A stretch of 64,000 bases of DNA from Gluconobacter wancherniae NBRC 103581 (GTDB lineage Bacteria; Pseudomonadota; Alphaproteobacteria; Acetobacterales; Acetobacteraceae), in the NCBI RefSeq assembly GCF_007988885.1, contig NZ_BJUZ01000002.1:682001-746000 (forward strand), given 5' to 3'. This document shows, one piece after another, positions 3,891 to 37,844 of this stretch. Numbering within the stretch: position 1 is the stretch's first letter; each line of letters begins with the position of its first letter. The notes below the pieces were generated by a model. It saw only the letters and a program-made list of their open reading frames with translations. It was not told the DNA's origin and ran no database searches. A program made the position numbers and the translations under genes.

Positions 3891-5114
3891 TCAGTCCCGG
3901 CGTACGATGTAGTGTCTGGCCAGATCAGTTTCGATCTGCTGGGCATGCTGGGTGTCGCGCGCTTCGACCATCACCACGAGTTCTGCCGTTTGCACGGAGG
4001 GGGATGCGAAGAGGCGATGATGTGAGACTTCGATAATGTTGCCGCCATAACCGCCGATACGGGTAGAGATATCCGCCAGCATTCCGGGGCGATCGGGGAT
4101 CTGAAAAATCAGTCGAAGAATGCGGCCATCCCGCAGGAGAGAGCGCAGAACCGTGTTTGCGAGGATACGCGCATTGATGTTTCCTCCTGTGAGTGGGAGG
4201 GCGACGCGCTTGCCTGCAAAAAGCTCAGGGTTTGCAAGAATAGCAGCAAGGCCTGATGCACCTGCGCCCTCGCAAACCTGCTTGGCCTTTTCAGCCAGCG
4301 TTGTAATGGCGCTCTCGACCTGAAGTTCACTGACCACCAGGATCTTCGAGATCCGGTTGCGCATGTTATGCAGGCAGTGGTCACCCAGCTTTGTGACCGC
4401 GATACCTTCTGCGATAGTCGAGCCCCCAAGGACGGGAGTGTCTTCCTTTGGGTAGGCCGATAGCGAAGCATAAGCTTCAACCTGCACGCCAATGATCTCG
4501 ATATCAGGGCGTAGCGCCGCAACGACAGCGGAAAAGCCTGCAATCAGGCCGCCGCCGCCAATAGGCACGACAATCACGTCCTGATCTGGTGCGTCCTGAA
4601 GAAGTTCGAGTGCGGCTGTGCCTTGTCCGGCAATAACGTCAGGGTCATTGAACGGATGGACCAGAACGCGACCTTCGTTTGCGCGTAGTTCTTCTGCGGT
4701 GATGCAGGCTTGCGTGAAATCATCACCCGCGAGAACGACCCGCGCACCCCAAGCCTGGGTTGCAGCGATCTTCGTTGCTGGTGTGAATCGTGGCATGACA
4801 ATTGTTGCGTCAATGCCCAGAAGGCTGGCCTGTCGTGCGACGCCCTGCGCATGGTTGCCTGCAGATACTGTTACAACACCCTTAGCGCGTTCTTCCGGGG
4901 TGAGGAGTGCCATTTTATTGGCCGCACCTCGCTCCTTGAACGATCCAATCGCCTGAAGATTTTCAAGCTTGAGGGTAATCTCCGCTCCGGTCAGACGTGA
5001 GAGCGCCGGGCACGCAATCGACGGCGTCCGGACGACAGTCGAGGAAATACGCTCTTGCGCATTCTCGATGTCAAAGATGGTAACCTCAGGCAAGATCGTC
5101 AGGCTGTCAGACAT
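3891..5114 (-). CDS. ilvA: Threonine ammonia-lyase (threonine dehydratase)
   Basis: A 407-residue PLP enzyme deaminating L-threonine to 2-oxobutanoate, the entry to isoleucine synthesis. The PLP lysine lies in GSFKERGAANK near residue 60, and the phosphate-binding glycine loop is VVPIGGGGLIAG. The last 80 residues form a single ACT-type domain (LIFQIPDRPGMLADIS). That is the short form common in Alphaproteobacteria and is sometimes annotated as catabolic TdcB-like; whether isoleucine inhibits it cannot be decided here. The ATG shares one base with the greA stop (TAATG), so it is co-transcribed with greA. Confidence 0.9.
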   Translation of the reverse strand: MSDSLTILPEVTIFDIENAQERISSTVVRTPSIACPALSRLTGAEITLKLENLQAIGSFKERGAANKMALLTPEERAKGVVTVSAGNHAQGVARQASLLGIDATIVMPRFTPATKIAATQAWGARVVLAGDDFTQACITAEELRANEGRVLVHPFNDPDVIAGQGTAALELLQDAPDQDVIVVPIGGGGLIAGFSAVVAALRPDIEIIGVQVEAYASLSAYPKEDTPVLGGSTIAEGIAVTKLGDHCLHNMRNRISKILVVSELQVESAITTLAEKAKQVCEGAGASGLAAILANPELFAGKRVALPLTGGNINARILANTVLRSLLRDGRILRLIFQIPDRPGMLADISTRIGGYGGNIIEVSHHRLFASPSVQTAELVVMVEARDTQHAQQIETDLARHYIVRRD

Positions 5115-5587
5115 TAGCGAAACGATACCTTAAGGATTTCGTAGGTTCTGTCACCGCCAGGTGCGGGGACAGAGACGGTATCGCCCTCTTCCTTGCCTAT
5201 CAGGGACTTGGCAAGCGGGGAGGAGACGGAAAGAAGGCCTTGCTTGATGTCGGCTTCGTGTACGCCAACGATCTGGTATGAGCTCTCTTTCTCGCTTTCC
5301 TCGTCGAGGAGTTCGATATGAGCGCCGAATTTCACCTGACTGCCCGAGAGTGTCGAAGGGTCGATAACTTCGGCTGTTGAAACCAGCTCTTCCAGTTCGA
5401 GAACGCGCCCTTCGATAAATGACTGGCGGTCACGTGCGGCATGATATTCGGCGTTTTCAGATAGATCGCCATGAGCACGGGCTTCGGCAATGGCGCGGAT
5501 GACGGCGGGGCGATCTTCGCTTTTGAGGCGACGCAGCTCGTCTTCGAGACGCTGCAGTCCCTGCGCGGTCATTGGACTCTTCTGCAC
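5114..5587 (-). CDS. greA: Transcription elongation factor GreA
   Basis: A 157-residue GreA that stimulates transcript cleavage in backtracked RNA polymerase. The N-terminal coiled coil has the family hallmark AEARAHGDLSENAEYHAARD (acidic tip DLSEN), followed by the FKBP-like domain with SPLAKSLIGKEEGD. A GTG start is chosen because the family normally begins MxxxPMTxxG and the GTG gives MQKSPMT; TGAGGA lies eight bases upstream. The ATG at residue 6 is the alternative. It is first gene of a greA-ilvA unit with a good promoter at 5635-5663. Confidence 0.95.
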   Translation of the reverse strand: MQKSPMTAQGLQRLEDELRRLKSEDRPAVIRAIAEARAHGDLSENAEYHAARDRQSFIEGRVLELEELVSTAEVIDPSTLSGSQVKFGAHIELLDEESEKESSYQIVGVHEADIKQGLLSVSSPLAKSLIGKEEGDTVSVPAPGGDRTYEILKVSFR

Positions 5588-5634
5588 TATAAAATCCTCA
5601 GGAAAGCGTATCGAGAAATTGGGAATAGCCAGAC

Positions 5635-5663
5635 AATATAGGGTTTCCGTAGGATTTTTACAA
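5635..5663 (-). promoter_or_regulatory. Putative sigma-70 promoter for greA-ilvA
   Basis: On the minus strand, TTGTAA (5663-5658), a 17-base spacer and TATATT (5640-5635) match the housekeeping consensus well. The -10 element lies about 47 bases upstream of the greA GTG. Confidence 0.6.
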
Positions 5664-5811
5664 GATCAGGCAAAGTTTGTTATCGAATTTCAATAATATA
5701 ATCGCACTCATCCGGGCTTTCTGAAGGTGAGGACGTGCCTGATCTCGAGCGGATAAGTGTCTCGGTGCTAAAGAGGCTTTAAGTGAAAAACGCTATGCTC
5801 TCGATGGGCGG

Positions 5812-5839
5812 GCTGTCCGGGAAGATCTCCCCGGACAGC
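5812..5839 (-). terminator. Hairpin after carB, possible terminator
   Basis: A perfect 9-bp stem (GCTGTCCGG / CCGGACAGC) with a 10-base loop starts nine bases after the carB stop. It lacks a T-run on the minus strand, so it may be a weak terminator or an RNA 3' stabiliser. Confidence 0.5.
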
Positions 5840-5848
5840 TAAACATTT

Positions 5849-8800
5849 TTAGAACGTTCCGCGGAAATAAGACTGAAGTGGAGCGACGCCCAACTCGCCT
5901 TCTTTCATCGCTGCTATCGCGTAGGTTGCTGCCCGAGCGCCTGCGATCGTCGTGTAGTGAGGAACGCCCATTGTTAATGCGCCCCGACGGATGTCGAAAC
6001 TGTCGCGCGCTGCCTGGCCGCCTTTCGCGGTGTTGATGACCATCTGAACTTCGCCAGAGCGGATTGCGTCTACGCAGTTGGGGCGGCCTTCCAGGACCTT
6101 GTTGACGCGTGTCACCGCAATGCCGGCTTCTTCAAGTCGAGACGCAGTCCCGCCCGTGGCGAGAATGGTAAAGCCCATTCCCACCAGCTTGCGGGCGAGA
6201 GTCTGAATGTGGGGCTTATCGCTCTCGCGAACCGACAGGAATACTGTTCCGGAAAGCGGAAGCTTGACGCCTGCCGCAAGTTGGGATTTGGCGAAGGCAC
6301 GCTCGAAGCTGGAATCCAGCCCCATGACTTCACCTGTAGAGCGCATCTCCGGACCAAGAATGGTGTCCACGTTTGCAAAGCGGTTGAACGGGAACACAGC
6401 TTCCTTGACCGCGACATGTGGAGACACGGCATCGCCGTCCAGCCGGAACTCGGACAGGCGTGCACCAGCCATGACACGGGCACCGATTTTGGCTACCGGA
6501 ACGCCCGTCGCTTTGGCGACAAAAGGTACGGTACGGGATGCGCGGGGATTAACTTCAAGGACGAAGATTTCGTCATTTTTGATAGCGTACTGGACGTTCA
6601 TCAGGCCACGGATGCCCAGTTCACGTGCCATGGCTTCGGTCTGCGAGCGCAGTTCCGTCACAATAGCTGGCGAGAGGGTATAGGGCGGCAGGGAGCAGGC
6701 TGAGTCACCGGAATGAATGCCTGCCTCCTCAATGTGCTCCATCACGCCGGCCACATACACCGTCTCACCATCGGAGATGCAGTCCACATCGGCTTCGATG
6801 GCATCGTTGAGATAGTGATCGAGCAGGACAGGGGCGTTTGCCACTTCGGGGCCGGCGGCGCGAAGAACGTCGTTCAGATAACGCTTCAGGCCTGCACGGT
6901 CATAGACAATCTCCATAGCGCGGCCACCCAGAACGTAGGATGGGCGAGCAACGATTGGGTAGCCGACTTCCTCTGCTACGGCTTCTGCTTCCGAGGCGTG
7001 GCGTGCAATGCCGTTGCGGGGCTGGCGGAGGCCAAGCTTGCGAAGCATGGCCTGAAAACGCTCGCGGTCTTCTGCGCGATCGATCGCGTCTGCCGGTGTG
7101 CCGAGGAGCGGAATGCCGGCTTCTTCAAGTGCACGAGACAGTTTGAGCGGTGTTTGTCCGCCATACTGGACGATGCAGCCAAGAATCTTGCCACCTTTTG
7201 CTTCTGTACGGATCAGGGCGATCACGTCTTCGGCGGTCAGGGGTTCGAAGTACAGGCGGTCCGAGGTGTCGTAATCCGTGGAGACGGTTTCTGGATTGCA
7301 GTTGACCATGACCGTTTCGAAGCCAGCTTCGCGCAAGGCGTAGGCAGCATGAACGCAGCAATAATCAAACTCGATGCCTTGGCCGATCCGGTTGGGGCCG
7401 CCACCAAGGATGATAATTTTGTCGCGGCCAGTGGGGCGGCTTTCACATTCCGGCGTGCCATATCCACCTTCGTAGGTGGAGTAGAGATAAGGCGTATCCG
7501 ATGCGAATTCGGCCGCGCAGGTGTCAATGCGGCGATAGACTGGCGTTACTTCCAGCTTCTCGCGAAGGGTGAGGATGTCCTTGGCGGTCTGACCAGACAG
7601 GCGGCTCAGCTGTGCATCGGAGAAGCCCTGCGCCTTGAGGCGGCGCATACCATAGGCATCCTGCGGCAGGCCGTTCTTCTCGATTTCGCGTTCAGAAGTG
7701 ACAATGTCCTGAAGCTGGCGGATGAACCAGGGCTCGAACTTACAGGCGGCGTGGATGTCTTCCAGCGACAGGCCTGCACGGATGGCCTGTGCAACCATAA
7801 GGATGCGCTCTGGGCGAGGCTCGGAAAGGGCAGCGCGGTAGGCGTCCAGTGATCCATCGCCCGGTGCCTCCACCGGATCGAGGCCCATGAGCCCCGTTTC
7901 CATGGAGCGCAGGCCTTTCTGAATGGCTTCTGCAAAGCTGCGCCCGACGGACATCGCTTCACCGACCGACTTCATGGACGTTGAGAGCAGCGCTGGAGTG
8001 CCGGGGAATTTCTCGAAGGTGAAGCGGGGAATTTTGGCGACGACATAATCGATGGTCGGCTCGAAGCTTGCGGGCGTCGTGCCGGTAATGTCGTTGCGCA
8101 ATTCATCGAGCGTGTAACCAACGGCAAGCTTCGCGGCGATCTTGGCGATGGGGAAGCCGGTCGCTTTGGAAGCAAGTGCCGAGGAGCGCGAGACGCGCGG
8201 GTTCATTTCGATGACGACCATGCGGCCGTCTTTCGGGTTGATACCGAACTGTACGTTGGACCCGCCAGTCTCAACGCCGATGGCACGCAGGCACGCCAGC
8301 GAGGCATCGCGCAGGCGCTGGTATTCCTTGTCGGTCAGCGTCAGGGCCGGGGCGACCGTGATGGAGTCACCTGTATGAACACCCATCGGGTCGATGTTTT
8401 CGATGGAGCAGATGATGATGCAGTTGTCCGCAACGTCACGGACGACTTCCATTTCGTATTCTTTCCAGCCCAGAACCGACTCTTCAATGAGAACTTCGGT
8501 TGTGGGGGAGGCGTCGAGGCCACCTGTTACGATCTGATCGAATTCTTCGCGGTTATACGCGATGCCACCGCCCGAGCCGCCCATGGTGAAGGACGGGCGG
8601 ATAATTGCTGGAAGACCAACGCTCGGAAGTGCTGCACGTGCCTCTTCAAGTGTATGGGCAATGGTGCTGCGTGGACTCTCGATGCCGATTGCGTCCATCG
8701 CTTCACGGAACTTGAGGCGATCTTCCGCGCGATCAATAACGTCCGCGCGGGCACCAATCAGTTCGACCCCGTGCTGTTCGAGGAAGCCGGACTTGTCGAG

Positions 8801-9103
8801 CGCCATTGCAGCGTTCAGGGCTGTCTGGCCGCCCATGGTTGGCAGGACGGCGTCCGGCTTTTCCTTGAGGATGATACGCTCGACGAATTCAGGCGTGATC
8901 GGCTCGATATAGGTTGCATCCGCCAAACCCGGATCGGTCATGATGGTGGCAGGGTTCGAGTTGATCAGGATGACGCGATAGCCTTCCTCGCGCAGGGCCT
9001 TGCAGGCCTGAGCGCCGGAATAGTCGAATTCGCAGGCCTGTCCGATAACGATCGGGCCAGCGCCGATGATCAGGATCGACTTGATGTCAGTGCGTTTGGG
9101 CAT
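5849..9103 (-). CDS. carB: Carbamoyl-phosphate synthase large subunit
   Basis: A 1084-residue CarB, full length, that makes carbamoyl phosphate from bicarbonate, ammonia (delivered by CarA) and two ATP for pyrimidine and arginine synthesis. Two ATP-grasp halves are visible. The first begins [20 protein letters not shown] and contains [16 protein letters not shown]; the second begins [20 protein letters not shown] and contains [18 protein letters not shown]-terminal MGS-like allosteric domain (about 940-1084) contains [16 protein letters not shown] and VINTAKGG. It lies three bases downstream of the carA stop in the same operon. Confidence 0.98.
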
Positions 9104-32067: not shown

Positions 32068-32230
32068 CGGGCGTGGTTTGATGGGGCTCCATCAGTCATG
32101 AAGCCCGGATCAGACCCTGCATACCGTACTCGCCTTTTTCCATCTTGATCCGGTCTCTGTCTCACTTGCTGCGCTGACCTTTCCTGCGTCCCTGCGTGTC
32201 AGGGACGACGGGTGCAAAGGAAGCGGGCGG

Positions 32231-33412
32231 GTGGCGCTGGCCGCAGCACTGGTTGCTGCCCTTTGCGTTTCTCCCGCGCTGGTCGCAGTCGCCATCGGTG
32301 TGTTGCAAACACAGGAACGCGCGCGCTGCCCACAATACTGGGCAGTTCCGGCGCTTTTGCTATGGGTGCTGTTTCCCTCTTGCACGTCTGCGTTTCTCGG
32401 GCTGCTACCTGTCCTGCTCTGGCCAATAATCAATGGCAGGGTTATCGCGTCTTTCCCCGCATTAGGGGCTGTTCTGGCAGTGTCATGTCTTTGGCATCAG
32501 GGCGATCCATCTGCGTTTCTCGTCACAGCAGTAGTTGGGATATTGATACCGATACTGGCCTTTGGTGCCGTGATGCGTGCTTCAGCGCCGGGGGATCTGT
32601 CGTTTCTGCGACCCGTCCTGCTCCTTTCCATTGTCATTGCGGCCCGTGCGGAGGGGCTGGAGGCAAGCGCGCAGGCGGCGGCTCTGGGGCTGTTTCTGGA
32701 TCTTGTGCTTCTTGTGCTGACGCCTCCTGCCATGAAACTGGTTCCTGAGGCGTCCTATCTGCGCCTGCCTTTACCGCCACTGCCCGGTTTCATTGTGTTG
32801 TGGCTAGGTATTCATGCCGCGCTGGGTATGGCCGCGGGGGTGCAGGGGTGGAGTGTGGCTGGAGTGGGCGTGGCGATGCTGCTCGGCCTGCTGGCATTGC
32901 TTGATGTTTCTTCAGTTCAGAAGCGATCGGGACGAGGTGTTCTTGATCTTCCTGCGGGAACGTTGCTGCTGACATTTTCTGCTGCCGTTCTCCTTCTTCC
33001 TGTGGCCGTCGTGCTGTTGTTCAGTGCGGCGATCCATCAGATTGGCGGAACACTTCTTTTGTCGGTTTTCTCACTGGGGGGAGGGGATGGCGCTCATCTG
33101 AGGCTGCCGCTTCTTGCTGCTCTGATGATGATGGTCTGGCTCCTTCTGACGCGGCCCTGGACGCCTCATGGACTGGCACGGCTGCAGGGGATCCAGTGGG
33201 GACAGTTTCCAAGGTCTGAGCTACTTTCATTTTTTGGCGGAAAGCCGATATTTCCTTGGGAGCTGCGACGCGTGCTTGCAGGTGCACGCCGTTTTTTCCG
33301 CAATGTCAGAAAGCTGCGTGGGTGGAAAATGCCTGATGGCCGCCGGGCAGGTATTGGTCTGTGGCTTTTCCTGCTGGCAGTCGTCCTTGCTGTTCTGGGG
33401 CTTACGTCATGA
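32231..33412 (+). CDS. Hydrogenase-4-like membrane subunit B (HyfB/antiporter-like, short)
   Basis: A very hydrophobic protein of 393 residues from the first canonical start (GTG 32231), with about nine transmembrane helices. The same frame continues upstream to a TGA at 32099. It encodes the segment LAFFHLDPVSVSLAALTF, which looks like the N-terminal loop of HyfB/NuoL-type antiporter subunits, but contains no ATG, GTG or TTG. The true start may be CTG (32117), or the ATG at 32098 if there is a frameshift. Even so it is far shorter than HyfB (about 670). I see no lysine inside a predicted helix, although antiporter-like subunits use such lysines for proton transfer. First gene of a six-gene coupled cluster. 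Confidence 0.65.
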   Translation: MALAAALVAALCVSPALVAVAIGVLQTQERARCPQYWAVPALLLWVLFPSCTSAFLGLLPVLLWPIINGRVIASFPALGAVLAVSCLWHQGDPSAFLVTAVVGILIPILAFGAVMRASAPGDLSFLRPVLLLSIVIAARAEGLEASAQAAALGLFLDLVLLVLTPPAMKLVPEASYLRLPLPPLPGFIVLWLGIHAALGMAAGVQGWSVAGVGVAMLLGLLALLDVSSVQKRSGRGVLDLPAGTLLLTFSAAVLLLPVAVVLLFSAAIHQIGGTLLLSVFSLGGGDGAHLRLPLLAALMMMVWLLLTRPWTPHGLARLQGIQWGQFPRSELLSFFGGKPIFPWELRRVLAGARRFFRNVRKLRGWKMPDGRRAGIGLWLFLLAVVLAVLGLTS

Positions 33413-34314
33413 TGGTGCACATTATTTCGTGGCTGGAAGCTCTGGCGCAGGACGTTTTTCAGATCGTGCTGCTTGCGATACTGGCCCCTTTCATCGCGTG
33501 GTGTCTGAGATGCGGTCCCGCATGGTTCGGGGGTATCGCGACCGTATCGCCATACCCGATAATCACGCAGCATCTCGCTTTCTGGCATCGTGGATGGAAG
33601 GTCGGTTTTTCAGGACGGGACGGTGTGTGTCTTGCTGCGCTCCTGACTGTAATGGCTGTTTTGCCCGCCATCACAACTGATCTCTTCTGGATTTCTTTGG
33701 CGGACCCTCTGTTAGTGGGCGTTCTGCTTTTGGCAATCCGGAGCATCGCTGTGCCCCCATTCACTGCGTTGGTGCGCGATGGGCGTATCGCTGGCAATAC
33801 GAGGACTGGAATTCGGCCTCTTGTCCCAGCGTTTCTGCTGCTTTGTCTGGTCGAGGCACTTTCGGCACTTTCGGCGTCTGGTGCCGATGGCCTTGGGGGG
33901 CTATGTGCGATCCTTCATATTGAGCCCGGGCCGGGGCTTGAGGGTGCCCTTGCCGCGTGTGCGCTAGCATTGGGGATTATTTGTCCTCCTTTGCGACATG
34001 AAGATGTGATCATGGCGCTATCGGATGTGCGTGATCGCGAGGACAGAAACCAGCGGAGGGTGCTGGTCGAGCTTGTGAACTGTGGCTGGGTGCTTTTTTT
34101 GTCAGATCTGGCTTTCCCATCCGGAATTGCCCTTCCGGGAAGCGGCGTAACGGGGTGGTTCTCGGGCCTTGGTTTGCTGGGGGCGAGACTGATACTTGTG
34201 GTGCTGGTTCTTGGAGGGCTGCGTACAACAGGGCAGGAGCGCAGTTCGCGCCTTACGGCACTTTTCGCGGGTCTTGCGCTGCTTATCGCTCTGGCAGGAA
34301 GGTTTGCAACATGA
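33409..34314 (+). CDS. Hydrogenase-4-like membrane subunit C (HyfC/HycD/NuoH-like)
   Basis: A 301-residue membrane protein with about eight helices. The first loop (APFIAWCLRCGPAWFGGI, then SPYPIITQHL) corresponds to the quinone-cavity loop of HycD/NuoH (GPxxLQPYxDLxKLL type). The later loop MALSDVRDREDRNQRRVLVE occupies the place of the HLELT loop but lacks that sequence. It starts with ATGATG overlapping the preceding stop (33409-33412). It anchors the peripheral arm in complexes of this family. Confidence 0.75.
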   Translation: MMVHIISWLEALAQDVFQIVLLAILAPFIAWCLRCGPAWFGGIATVSPYPIITQHLAFWHRGWKVGFSGRDGVCLAALLTVMAVLPAITTDLFWISLADPLLVGVLLLAIRSIAVPPFTALVRDGRIAGNTRTGIRPLVPAFLLLCLVEALSALSASGADGLGGLCAILHIEPGPGLEGALAACALALGIICPPLRHEDVIMALSDVRDREDRNQRRVLVELVNCGWVLFLSDLAFPSGIALPGSGVTGWFSGLGLLGARLILVVLVLGGLRTTGQERSSRLTALFAGLALLIALAGRFAT

Positions 34315-34832
34315 TTGCCGGATTTGCATTGCTTCTGCTGCTTGCTCTTGCGGCGCTGGGGCGTGATGGACGTGGCCTGCCGCTTTATGGCGTTGTCTGT
34401 GCGTTTACAGGTGCGACAGTGTGTGGCGGTTTGCTGGCGTTACTGACTTCCGTAGCCCTGATCTCGTTGAATATTGTGGCTTGGATCGGCTTGCGTCGCT
34501 TTGCACCCCACACGCCTGAGCGCAGTTCGGTTCTGCCTGTAATGGGCACAATCGTATTGTTGCTGACGCTTGCTCTCTCCGGAGCAAGTCTGGGCCTTAC
34601 TACGGCTCTTGGTGCGGGAATCGTGCTCGCCGGCCTTTGCGGGGCTGCATTCGGGCCCCCTTTGGTACAGTTTGTGGGCCTGCTGATGGCATCTGACGGT
34701 TTGATCGTGATGGCTTGCGTCATGCAGTCCTGGGCGCTTTTTGCAACGGCTCTTGCGTTCTGGGGTGTTCTTGCCGCTCTGGGCTGCGTGCTTTTGCCAA
34801 GGCTTGCATGGCGAAGGGTGCTGGAGGAATGA
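34311..34832 (+). CDS. Hydrogenase-4-like membrane subunit E (HyfE/NuoK-like)
   Basis: A 173-residue, almost entirely hydrophobic protein with about six helices, shorter than E. coli HyfE (about 216). The segment LLMASDGLIVMACV matches the place where HyfE/NuoK have L-E-N-G, so the intramembrane Glu appears replaced by Asp. There is no lysine in the whole protein. GGAAGG precedes the ATG, which overlaps the previous stop (ATGA, 34311-34314). Confidence 0.7.
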   Translation: MIAGFALLLLLALAALGRDGRGLPLYGVVCAFTGATVCGGLLALLTSVALISLNIVAWIGLRRFAPHTPERSSVLPVMGTIVLLLTLALSGASLGLTTALGAGIVLAGLCGAAFGPPLVQFVGLLMASDGLIVMACVMQSWALFATALAFWGVLAALGCVLLPRLAWRRVLEE

Positions 34833-35920
34833 GCCACCAAATAGCGCCAATCAACGTGCTGTCTGCGGTGACAACGTGGCCGTTATTGGCGGCATTCCTG
34901 CTTTTTGTGACGCCCGATTCCCGCCAGAAGGCCAGCGGGCTCACGTTTGCTGTCGCAGGTGCGCTTCTTACGCCGCTTGCGGTTGTGCTCATGCCAGGGA
35001 CGGATGCATTCGCGGCAGCCTGTTCATGTGCTGTAGCGCTTATGCCGCTTCTGTTACCTCCCGGAGCAGATCGGGCCTCGCGCATTCTGCCTTTTTTGAT
35101 CACCGGCTGCGCTCTTATTGCGCTGAACGTGCATTCGGCGCTGGCTGTGACCGTGCTTTGTGGCGCAGGTATTGTGCTCCTGGCCTGGCGAGAGGGGCGC
35201 GGCACGCAGAAGGCAAGCAGCGTATGGGATATGGCGCGCAGCCGCCTGTGTGGCGTTGTTTTGGGAGCGCTGGGGGCTGCATTGCTGCCGATGCAGCATC
35301 AGTCTCCTCTGGGGCCGGTTCTGCTGGCCATTGGTTTGTGTATGATGGCAGGGCTCGGGCCTTCTCCGGCTCCCCGCTCGGCTGCAGCACTTATGGATAC
35401 GTGCCTGCGTTTTGCAGCGATTGTGCTGATGATGCGGCTGAATACGCAGCCTCTTGTTCATGTGCTTGTGCTGGTTGCTGGTTTTGCGAGCCTGCTGATG
35501 GCGGTTACCGCGTCGGGCGCGCGTGTGGCTCTGCCAATGCTTTCCGCTCTGGCTGCAATCAGTGCCGCAACGGGAGAAGCTGCTGCTGTGCTTCTGCTAC
35601 TGATCGCGGCTCTTGGCACAACAACGCTGGAGACACGCGGAAAATCAACTGAAACTGACGCAATTTTCTGGGGGAGTGCGCCATGGCCTGTGTTCTGTGC
35701 GCTCATTCTGATCGGGCGCTCTCTTGAGGTTGCGCTTCTATGGCTGCTTGTGGGCTGTGTTGCCTTGGGGCTGCGAGGAGCCTCTCTGCCGCTGATCCTG
35801 CCTGCCTGGCAACGGGGTGAGCGAAACATGGCGGCGTTTGTGGAAGTGGCTCTTTTGTTATGCGGTCTGACTGCTCCGCTTCTGCTGGTGTGGCATCCGG
35901 TCGCAGGGTGGCGCCCGTGA
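34829..35920 (+). CDS. Hydrogenase-4-like membrane subunit F (HyfF/NuoN-like, short)
   Basis: A 363-residue protein with about ten helices in the position of HyfF (526 residues in E. coli), therefore missing several helices. All lysines I can find (SRQKAS, TQKASS, RGKSTE) fall in loops, so the transmembrane Lys/Glu proton pathway is not recognisable. Similarity to the family rests mostly on position, hydrophobicity and size order. The ATG overlaps the previous gene as ATGA (34829-34832). The start could also be read further upstream in frame, but that part overlaps subunit E coding sequence. Confidence 0.65.
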   Translation: MSHQIAPINVLSAVTTWPLLAAFLLFVTPDSRQKASGLTFAVAGALLTPLAVVLMPGTDAFAAACSCAVALMPLLLPPGADRASRILPFLITGCALIALNVHSALAVTVLCGAGIVLLAWREGRGTQKASSVWDMARSRLCGVVLGALGAALLPMQHQSPLGPVLLAIGLCMMAGLGPSPAPRSAAALMDTCLRFAAIVLMMRLNTQPLVHVLVLVAGFASLLMAVTASGARVALPMLSALAAISAATGEAAAVLLLLIAALGTTTLETRGKSTETDAIFWGSAPWPVFCALILIGRSLEVALLWLLVGCVALGLRGASLPLILPAWQRGERNMAAFVEVALLLCGLTAPLLLVWHPVAGWRP

Positions 35921-37353
35921 GGGAAATGTCGTCTCTCATTCATTCCGGCGAGCGTGTCTCGCTGTTTCACTATCATCTGGATGCCGACCTTTGGCGCACC
36001 ATGCTGGCTGCCCCTGGAGCAACTCTGCCGCTGGTTTCGGCGTGGGCGGACTCTTCGAGAATTTACATCCTGCTTCTTGAGGGCAATCGTCCGTTGATGG
36101 CGAGCTGTGCTGTGGAGGACGGTCGTTATCTGGCACCATCCTCACGCTTCCCCGCTGCGGAATGGGGGGAGAGGGTCGCGTATGATCTCTATGGCGTTGA
36201 AGGGATGGGCGCGCGCGATGATAGTCCTGCAGTGGATGAAGGGGGCTGGGATGCGACCTGGCCGCTCTCTGAGCGCCCGGGGCCGGGCCTGCCGGGTCTG
36301 AAACCACTTGCCGATCGGCCATTTCTTCGCCCTGAGCGAACAGGACTATGCGGGCCGTTGGGTCTGTCTTTTGATATTTGCGATGGGCGTGCAGAAGGTA
36401 TTTCCGTTTCTGCAGGGTTTGCGCATCGGGGGGTATTGTCCCAACTCATTGGGAAGTCGCCGGAAGAGGGGCTGCGACTTGTTTCCCGTGTAACGGCAGG
36501 GGGATTTGTTGCTCACCCGCTGGCATTTGTGCGCGCTGTAGAGCAGGCGCGGGGTGAGCTTCCCGGCCCTGGTATTAGGGATACACGCTTCCTGTTGCTG
36601 GAGATCGAGCGGATTTCGGTTCATCTGCATGACATTGCTGTAACAATGCGCTCTGTTGAGGCAGAGATGTTTGCATCTCATTGCGATCATGCGCGTGAAG
36701 CGGTGGCGCAGGCCTGCGCTCGGGCAGGTGTTTCCCGTCGTCTGACGGATTTGGTGACATTCACTGGATTGAAGGACGGACTTGAGCCCGTTCCTCTGGC
36801 GCAGGCCGTCTGTGATGTGATGGAGCCAAGAATGCTGGCTCTGGCAGAGATGCAACGCACATTCGGCGTTCGCCTGCGAAAAATTGGCGCTCTGAGCGTG
36901 GAAGCCGTGCGTGAATATGCCGTGGGCGGTGTAACCGGGCGTGCTAGCGGACGGAGTCTGGACCTGCGTCGACGGGAGGCCGGGATGCGTCTGGACGCTT
37001 TGCGGGCTACCGGTGACAGCGCTGGAGACGCACAGGCGCGCAATGCTCTGCGTTTGGCTGAAATCCGCGATTCTCTGGCTTTGATGCGCCGTATACTGGC
37101 GAGTATCGGTATGGATGATGATGAACCTGCTCCACAGTCTTTGGAGGAGGGAATTGGTGCAGCTGAAGGTCCGCGTGGGGATGTGTGGTACTGGGTGCAG
37201 CTCAAGGATGGTCTGATCAAGGCCATTCAGGTCAGAGACCCATCCGCCTCTCTGTTGCCGGTGTTGGGGAAGGCTTTGGATGGTCTGACACCGGATCAAC
37301 TGGTCACGGCCCTGCGTTCTTTCGGTCTTGCACCATCGGGAATTGCATTATGA
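35917..37353 (+). CDS. Hydrogenase-4-like large subunit (HyfG/NuoCD-like) without NiFe ligands
   Basis: A 478-residue fusion like HyfG/HycE. The NuoC-like part has ERVAYDLYGVEGMGARDD; the NuoD-like part has SAGFAHRGVLSQL. Where catalytic large subunits read RVCGICGFAH, this one has RVTAGGFVAH; the C-terminal DPCxxC motif is DPSASL. All four NiFe cysteines are therefore absent, so no hydrogen chemistry is expected at this site. It starts with GTG in a GTGA overlap (35917-35920); ATG 35926 is an alternative. The family role is the peripheral arm facing the cytoplasm. Confidence 0.85.
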   Translation: MREMSSLIHSGERVSLFHYHLDADLWRTMLAAPGATLPLVSAWADSSRIYILLLEGNRPLMASCAVEDGRYLAPSSRFPAAEWGERVAYDLYGVEGMGARDDSPAVDEGGWDATWPLSERPGPGLPGLKPLADRPFLRPERTGLCGPLGLSFDICDGRAEGISVSAGFAHRGVLSQLIGKSPEEGLRLVSRVTAGGFVAHPLAFVRAVEQARGELPGPGIRDTRFLLLEIERISVHLHDIAVTMRSVEAEMFASHCDHAREAVAQACARAGVSRRLTDLVTFTGLKDGLEPVPLAQAVCDVMEPRMLALAEMQRTFGVRLRKIGALSVEAVREYAVGGVTGRASGRSLDLRRREAGMRLDALRATGDSAGDAQARNALRLAEIRDSLALMRRILASIGMDDDEPAPQSLEEGIGAAEGPRGDVWYWVQLKDGLIKAIQVRDPSASLLPVLGKALDGLTPDQLVTALRSFGLAPSGIAL

Positions 37354-37844
37354 AGATCCTGCCCGGAATGGGGCCTTCCAGTCTGCTTCAGGCTTTTCTG
37401 GATGTGACACGCTGGCGGGCCTCCGGGCAAGATCGTCTTGGCCGGCGCCAGCCTATTGCGCTTTTTCCTCTTGAAACGGGGGGGTGTGAAGGCTGCGCAA
37501 TGGAAGTTTCCGCTCTGGCAGGCAGTGCTTTTGCGCTTGAGCAGCATGGCTTTTGTCTGGTGAGTGAGCCGGAAGACGCGGACTGGCTTCTGGTCACGGG
37601 GCCGGTGACGCGGGCGAGTGCGGATGCGCTTGATCGAAACTGGCGCGCAATGCCGCGTGGCAGGAGCCTTGTCGCGGTTGGTGATTGTGCGATCAGCGGC
37701 GGACCGTTCACTACTAATTATGCTGTTTTGGGGGGGCTGGATAAACTTGCCTCTGTGAGGATGCAAGTGCCGGGCTGTCCTCCATCCCCGCAGGATCTGC
37801 TTCTGGGGTTGGAGGCGCTGGCGACCGGTCAGGTCAGGACGTAA
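37350..37844 (+). CDS. Hydrogenase-4-like small subunit (HyfI/NuoB-like) with [4Fe-4S] ligands
   Basis: A 164-residue protein holding the four cysteines of the proximal/N2-type cluster: C46 and C49 (ETGGCEGCAMEVSAL), C113 (GDCAISGG) and C143 (PGCPPSP). The cluster site is thus intact although the partner large subunit has lost its metal ligands. It is shorter than HyfI (about 250), lacking C-terminal additions. It overlaps the large-subunit gene by four bases (ATGA). Its 3' end overlaps the convergent pssA gene by 11 bp. Confidence 0.85.
   Translation: MKILPGMGPSSLLQAFLDVTRWRASGQDRLGRRQPIALFPLETGGCEGCAMEVSALAGSAFALEQHGFCLVSEPEDADWLLVTGPVTRASADALDRNWRAMPRGRSLVAVGDCAISGGPFTTNYAVLGGLDKLASVRMQVPGCPPSPQDLLLGLEALATGQVRT

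Follow-up and report, generated by a model that had tools for sequence, protein, structure and literature searches.

The superfamily that joins group-4 hydrogenases and respiratory complex I is known to couple a redox site with proton pumping. Among its members, the energy-converting hydrogenase-related (Ehr) complexes, reportedly the subject of a 2013 paper by Marreiros, combine hydrogenase-like membrane and soluble subunits with missing NiFe ligands; examples are Geobacter GSU0739-45 and those of Riflemargulisbacteria. Their function is presented as unsettled in the available parts of two papers (PMC6349859, PMC7894505), the former of which suspects them of coupling redox chemistry to charge translocation via antiporter-like subunits. 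Here we examine a 64,000-nucleotide stretch of Gluconobacter wancherniae NBRC 103581 (contig NZ_BJUZ01000002.1, positions 682,001 to 746,000; hereafter the window, with positions counted from its first letter), in which six genes of the forward strand (32117-37844) lie in the order HyfB-, HyfC-, HyfE-, HyfF-, HyfG- and HyfI-like and are called B, C, E, F, G and I below. By sequence comparison, we show that this operon encodes an Ehr complex belonging to the superfamily introduced above. The same comparisons show that in one clade of the family the predicted membrane arm has been trimmed and has lost the residues that carry protons in relatives, with the small subunit, predicted to bind [4Fe-4S], and the large-subunit core conserved under purifying selection. 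Ehr complexes as such are already known, and what differs here is that the antiporter-like subunits lack the canonical residues. No conserved Ehr complex with a stripped pumping arm was found in the open-licence papers searched, and no complex of this kind was found in the literature on Gluconobacter and acetic acid bacteria, as judged by titles and the beginnings of abstracts.

Three further described systems help to define the operon. It shares with the E. coli Hyf/Hyc hydrogenases the relative order B-C-E-F-G-I, the CxxC plus two further cysteines of the small subunit, and the HycE residues H284, R395, E437 and R478; unlike them, it has no NiFe cysteines, Gly in place of Asp529, no C-terminal tail, no HyfA, HyfD or HyfH, and a stripped membrane arm. 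The sulfane-sulfur reductase MBS (Mbx) of Pyrococcus furiosus has likewise lost the NiFe site and kept the proximal cluster, but it is described in the available part of PMC7684303 as retaining two of the NiFe cysteines, along with proton-pump subunits and a cluster bound by three cysteines. Neither the three-cysteine proximal cluster nor the two NiFe cysteines were found in the operon, the number of cluster ligands being inferred from cysteine spacing. Respiratory complex I (NuoB/NuoCD/NuoH/NuoL-N) draws on the same soluble families (PF00346 and PF01058), whereas the operon has no NADH module, a CxxC instead of the adjacent cysteines of NuoB, and no antiporter residues.

Neighboring genes of the operon overlap by four bases at all five junctions (33409, 34311, 34829, 35917 and 37350), every frame is open, and the gene starting at 35917 begins with GTG. 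The layout and junction coordinates given by the first-pass annotation, which was made from the sequence alone, were thus reproduced, as was its statement that HyfH is missing, no such gene being found between G and I. It had also described the two antiporter-like subunits as much shorter than their counterparts, which holds for B and F (Table 1) against the 672 aa of E. coli HyfB and the 526 aa of HyfF. The G protein is 65% identical to those of four Gluconobacter relatives (G. morbifer, G. thailandicus, G. japonicus and G. frateurii).

For comparison, we drew on sixty stretches from genomes at the genus, family and class levels. The large subunit G matches Pfam Complex1_49kDa (6.7e-12), with Complex1_30kDa below the cut-off, and the best solved relatives of the soluble G and I pair are chains of complex I, formate hydrogenlyase (FHL) and the membrane-bound hydrogenase MBH. 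When aligned with E. coli HycE/HyfG, the motif RVTAGGFVAH falls at the position of the first CxxC, as originally proposed. The second motif had been misplaced: DPSASL aligns elsewhere, and the real site is SFGLAPSG at the C-terminus (G residues 468-475), the HycE tail beyond the second CxxC being absent. Window residues are T and G at HycE C241/C244 and A and G at C531/C534, and neither CxxC motif of the group 4 [NiFe] hydrogenase or hydrogenase-4 large subunit is found in G. The four NiFe ligands were likewise present in none of 55 G sequences from related genomes, whether the membrane arm was full-size or reduced; one sequence (L095) has a lone cysteine, at the C244 position. The claim that the NiFe site is missing was therefore confirmed but is not distinctive, and neither is the adjacency of G and I, since full-size relatives show both features. 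HycE-numbered H284, R395, E437 and the canopy residue R478 are retained in all 21 genus sequences, and canopy D529 is replaced by Gly or Ala in the same 21 (Gly in the window); these positions were taken from the available part of an FHL structure paper (PMC9474812).

The small subunit matches Oxidored_q6 (2.5e-24), and the four cluster cysteines that had been pointed out (C46, C49, C113 and C143) are all present in the alignment. Across relatives, four cysteines with the CxxC spacing of hydrogenases were found in 59 of 60 I sequences, HyfI included, some of these coming from loci without a nearby G gene. In the remaining sequence (L115), Ser replaces the first cluster cysteine.

The membrane arm lacks canonical pumping residues. 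Simple hydropathy predicts about 12, 8, 6 and 11 helices for B, C, E and F, respectively, and, as the first-pass annotation had claimed, no lysine lies in any of them, nor anywhere in E. Among all 53 F sequences, HyfF-numbered E143, K167, K232, H239, H347, K351 and E406 are kept in 11/11 full-size relatives. The 39 reduced sequences (18 from outside the genus and 21 from within it, window included) retain none of K167, K232, H239, H347, K351 and E406, and E143 persists in two of them (L095 and L102). Partial losses occur as well: L113 retains E143, K232, H239 and H347, L114 retains E143 and H239, and L085 has none of the seven. A similar picture was obtained for B, for which 10 full-size candidates, 5 intermediate, 8 other reduced and 21 genus sequences were compared, those of L079 and L091 being cut by contig or locus ends. 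HyfB and 9/10 full-size candidates keep K221, K252, K352 and E407, the exception being L113, whose frame is possibly the wrong one; none of the 34 reduced sequences does. HycC itself lacks K221 according to the available part of PMC9474812. For C, HycD E138 is found in 13/13 canonical sequences versus 0/21 genus sequences, and the ND1-type loop between transmembrane helices (TMH) 5 and 6 is lost or deleted in all 21. At HycD E130, Glu is found in 20 of the 21 genus sequences, and window C has Gly.

Orthologues share the missing cysteines and lysines, which rules out sequence error as their cause, and within the genus the lost F lysines became Asp, Met, Val, Leu or Thr and never Arg, which excludes a Lys-to-Arg composition effect there; Arg at K167 of F was seen in a few sequences outside the genus. 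Charge-translocation residues, expected though not strictly required in Ehr complexes, are absent here. The combination of an intact cluster site, no catalytic metal and no proton-channel lysines had been called unusual, a view now supported by the full-size relatives, which keep the pumping residues.

Because the four membrane proteins had no Pfam match at E up to 1, and an NCBIfam search was likewise unhelpful, their homology was traced through relatives. Iterated HMM searches recovered C and F homologues of HyfC size (about 316 aa) and HyfF size (about 480 aa) in distant relatives, where the gene order is unchanged and both lie 5' of G and I. In profile-profile comparisons, with E-values for single comparisons and E sequences carrying extra N-terminal letters, window-type C matches the HyfC group without any intermediate (1.4e-8). 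The window-type forms of B, E and F are linked to an intermediate group (2.2e-6, 2.2e-6 and 9.4e-18), which in turn is linked to the HyfB, HyfE and HyfF groups (5.5e-25, 4.7e-6 and 2e-6). In the co-linear alignment of B, PPLPGF of the window stands opposite PPLNGF of HyfB. Antiporter-like membrane subunits were thus recognized through intermediates and gene order, and large and small subunits homologous to those of group-4 hydrogenases were found along with the absence of the NiFe-coordinating cysteines. The placement of the operon near Ehr, already suggested at first pass, is supported by this homology and the missing ligands.

A quick tree of 49 large-subunit sequences (SH-aLRT support only, eight genus sequences left out, L086 and L081 on long branches) united the strongly reduced forms in a single clade of 32 sequences (support 100). 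L114 and L085, in which F is eroded to 469 and 413 aa, adjoin this clade at a fork that is open, with a support of 84. On the 36 sequences scored for state, with L113 counted as eroded, a single change from full to eroded suffices. Taken with the partly eroded neighbors, the tree makes erosion look stepwise and confined to one lineage. L114, L085 and L113 all lie outside the reduced clade with partial loss of antiporter residues and are possible intermediates.

The reduced complex has been maintained by selection. Among 55 genus pairs with dS(G) between 0.05 and 1.0, median ratios of nonsynonymous to synonymous substitution (dN/dS, NG86) were 0.187 for B, 0.123 for C, 0.049 for E, 0.086 for F, 0.082 for G and 0.093 for I, against 0.076 for the neighboring AKR gene (46 pairs), 0.082 for chi (8 pairs) and 0.031 for LAP (2 pairs). 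Between the window and its closest relatives, nonsynonymous differences per site (pN) were below synonymous ones (pS) in every gene, with synonymous sites near saturation (pN/pS 0.37/0.68 for B, 0.15/0.63 for E and 0.13/0.68 for AKR). Purifying constraint acts on the operon, most strongly on E, F, G and I and more weakly on B and C. A search of the 25 other genus genomes found the large subunit, without inner stops, in every one, and all 20 genus loci fetched carry the remaining five genes. In the family, 195/200 genomes matched the G profile at 1e-30; the 27 matches between 1e-30 and 1e-60 are probably NuoD, leaving 168/200.

We regard Ehr identity and the loss of canonical pumping, taken together, as highly probable. 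The metal site, most of the E-channel, the coupling loop of C and the canonical antiporter residues are all missing, so the established pumping mechanism would not be expected to operate, judging from residues with known roles in FHL and complex I. Electrons should still matter, since the cluster site and the large-subunit core are retained under selection. The six proteins may form a B-C-E-F-G-I complex with a single proximal cluster at the membrane surface; such a complex would pump no ions and would pass electrons to or from either the quinone pool or a soluble partner, its membrane proteins serving as anchor and docking platform. The redox-sensing or quinone-linked role put forward at first pass is thus still plausible. 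As a function, a non-pumping membrane redox relay or sensor is offered tentatively, somewhat short of an even chance. On the overall explanation, an Ehr complex with a stripped arm acting as such a relay or sensor, our judgment is evenly divided. A complex I superfamily member may even have been domesticated to zero ion translocation, its pumping machinery lost stepwise in one lineage, its cluster kept as a membrane redox relay or sensor, and the resulting stripped form conserved across all Gluconobacter genomes searched, a broader proposal that we hold with rather less than even confidence.

Several results weigh against this picture. Direct comparison of window-type and canonical profiles was not significant for B, E and F, so that their homology rests on intermediates, co-linear alignment and gene order. 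Five-row alignments gave AlphaFold models of low confidence for F and B (mean pLDDT 42 and 44), uninformative on fold or assembly, and B evolves faster than AKR in both dN/dS (0.187 versus 0.076) and pN (0.37 versus 0.13). The I gene is separated from the other five in some relatives, and no recurrent partner gene or electron partner was found among the neighbors of 15 full-size or partly eroded loci (largest cluster 4/15). Finally, HycD R108 and D96 are kept in window C, as is the HycE H284/R395/E437 network, so some proton chemistry could remain.

The empty pocket invites a different reading, in which the proximal [4Fe-4S] cluster would itself reduce a substrate in the vacated NiFe site, as in MBS but uncoupled from ion transport. 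This relative, also without NiFe, does perform chemistry at its proximal cluster (PMC7684303, in the part available), and large-subunit H170, R191, R342 and R375 are invariant or nearly so among aligned relatives. However, the three cysteine ligands and two NiFe cysteines of MBS in that source contrast with four and zero here, and the operon encodes no ferredoxin-type donor subunit; a cluster-catalyzed reductase without pumping is thus considered unlikely. A structural or assembly scaffold, kept for protein contacts (e.g., organizing respiratory dehydrogenases or lipids) with a cluster that only stabilizes the fold, is slightly less likely still. Although it would agree with selection on the membrane proteins and large subunit despite their lost canonical residues, the conservation of four cysteines in all but one I sequence exceeds what this role would seem to need, and no linked partner gene was seen.

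Could the complex still pump ions, with new residues replacing the canonical lysines and glutamates? Other charged residues do lie in predicted helices, e.g., of F (R137, R139, R194, E250, R297 and E300) and B (H327 and R329), some of them invariant in five genus sequences, but the losses extend jointly to B and F, the coupling loop and the E-channel, and the proteins are much shorter, which makes this improbable. Least credible, to the point of being nearly dismissed, is a decaying remnant of an ancestral Ehr complex, an option that the first-pass annotation had raised. Small size, lost residues, the splitting off of I in some relatives and a 956-codon frame between G and I in L091 would fit decay, but the genus dN/dS medians of 0.05-0.19, which are not neutral, and the presence of the large subunit, free of inner stops, in all 25 other genus genomes led us to reject it.

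Were the reading as a stripped, non-pumping Ehr complex correct, the operon would amount to a natural experiment on the hydrogenase/quinone module without pumping, in which the metal, the coupling loop and the pumping residues are lost and the cluster site is kept. Since full-size, partly eroded and stripped forms coexist in one family, the order of loss should be readable and testable. The question is also directly open to experiment, since Gluconobacter oxydans B58 has a genome-wide set of knockout mutants, with 550 genes left undisrupted (PMC8602642, in the part available).

Table 1. Genes and motif positions of the Ehr-like operon in the window
Feature	Position	Strand	Basis
Reduced HyfB-like antiporter-like subunit, 431 aa assuming a CTG start at 32117	32117..33412	+	homology traced through intermediates, alignment at PPLxGF
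HyfC-like membrane subunit of 301 aa, lacking the TMH5-6 loop and most acidic residues of the E-channel	33409..34314	+	link to HyfC group by profile-profile comparison (E 1.4e-8)
HyfE-like membrane subunit of 173 aa, free of lysine	34311..34832	+	profile link through intermediates
HyfF-like antiporter-like subunit, reduced, 363 aa	34829..35920	+	profiles through intermediates, gene order
HyfG-like large subunit, fusion of 30-kDa and 49-kDa types, 478 aa, without NiFe ligands	35917..37353	+	Pfam, alignment
RVTAGGFVAH, position of first CxxC (HycE C241/C244)	36487..36516	+	alignment with HycE
SFGLAPSG, true position of second motif (HycE SLDPCYSC)	37318..37341	+	alignment with HycE
HyfI-like small subunit of 164 aa with all four cluster cysteines	37350..37844	+	Pfam, profile alignment

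The start of the B gene required correction. It had been set at 32099, which is wrong, as 32099-32101 is an in-frame TGA. The next in-frame ATG, GTG or TTG is found only at 32231, yet coding similarity extends upstream of it. Window positions 32099-32131 were compared with the corresponding region of 19 genus loci from the set L061-L080 (L079, which is cut, was excluded). A CTG at 32117, ten codons ahead of a conserved DPVS or its equivalent, occurs in 19 of these 20 sequences, the exception being CTA in L072, and CGGA stands at -11 to -8 from it in 15/20. No standard in-frame start lies upstream in 11 of the 20, window included, and the first downstream one is 12-45 codons off; five others have a TTG 12 codons upstream, and four a GTG or ATG 1-4 codons downstream. 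The alternative of a frameshift near the B start was dropped, as the ATG at 32098 is in a different frame and the CTG is conserved. CTG initiation at 32117 is the simplest reading and the best candidate start for the gene.

The window's genome was also searched for related functions. At 1e-3, it has no match to NiFeSe_Hases, none to Proton_antipo_M (PF00361; found in 13/14 controls) and none to HypD (found in 4/14 controls), the only hyp gene searched. The sole match to the 49-kDa family (PF00346) is the operon's own G gene. Complex I seems to be absent, given the lack of PF00361 matches and of PF00346 matches outside the operon; an equally diverged antiporter module would, however, escape PF00361, since this profile misses B and F themselves. 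No NADH-oxidizing module was found in the operon, to which the search for one was confined.

The flanks of the window, with chi upstream and pssA-psd downstream, recur in 13 of the 19 reduced loci from outside the genus; of the others, four have only pssA-psd, one has only the upstream genes and one (L086) has neither; the genus loci, as fetched, were too short to show the downstream flank. These flanks were seen in no full-size relative. The position of I also varies: it lies apart from the complex in L081 together with L104 (both from genome G033), L098, L107, L111 and L116, with the four cysteines kept. In L091, the open frame between G and I mentioned above lies within 5005-8992 of the locus, and the distance between G and I is also about 4 kb in L092.

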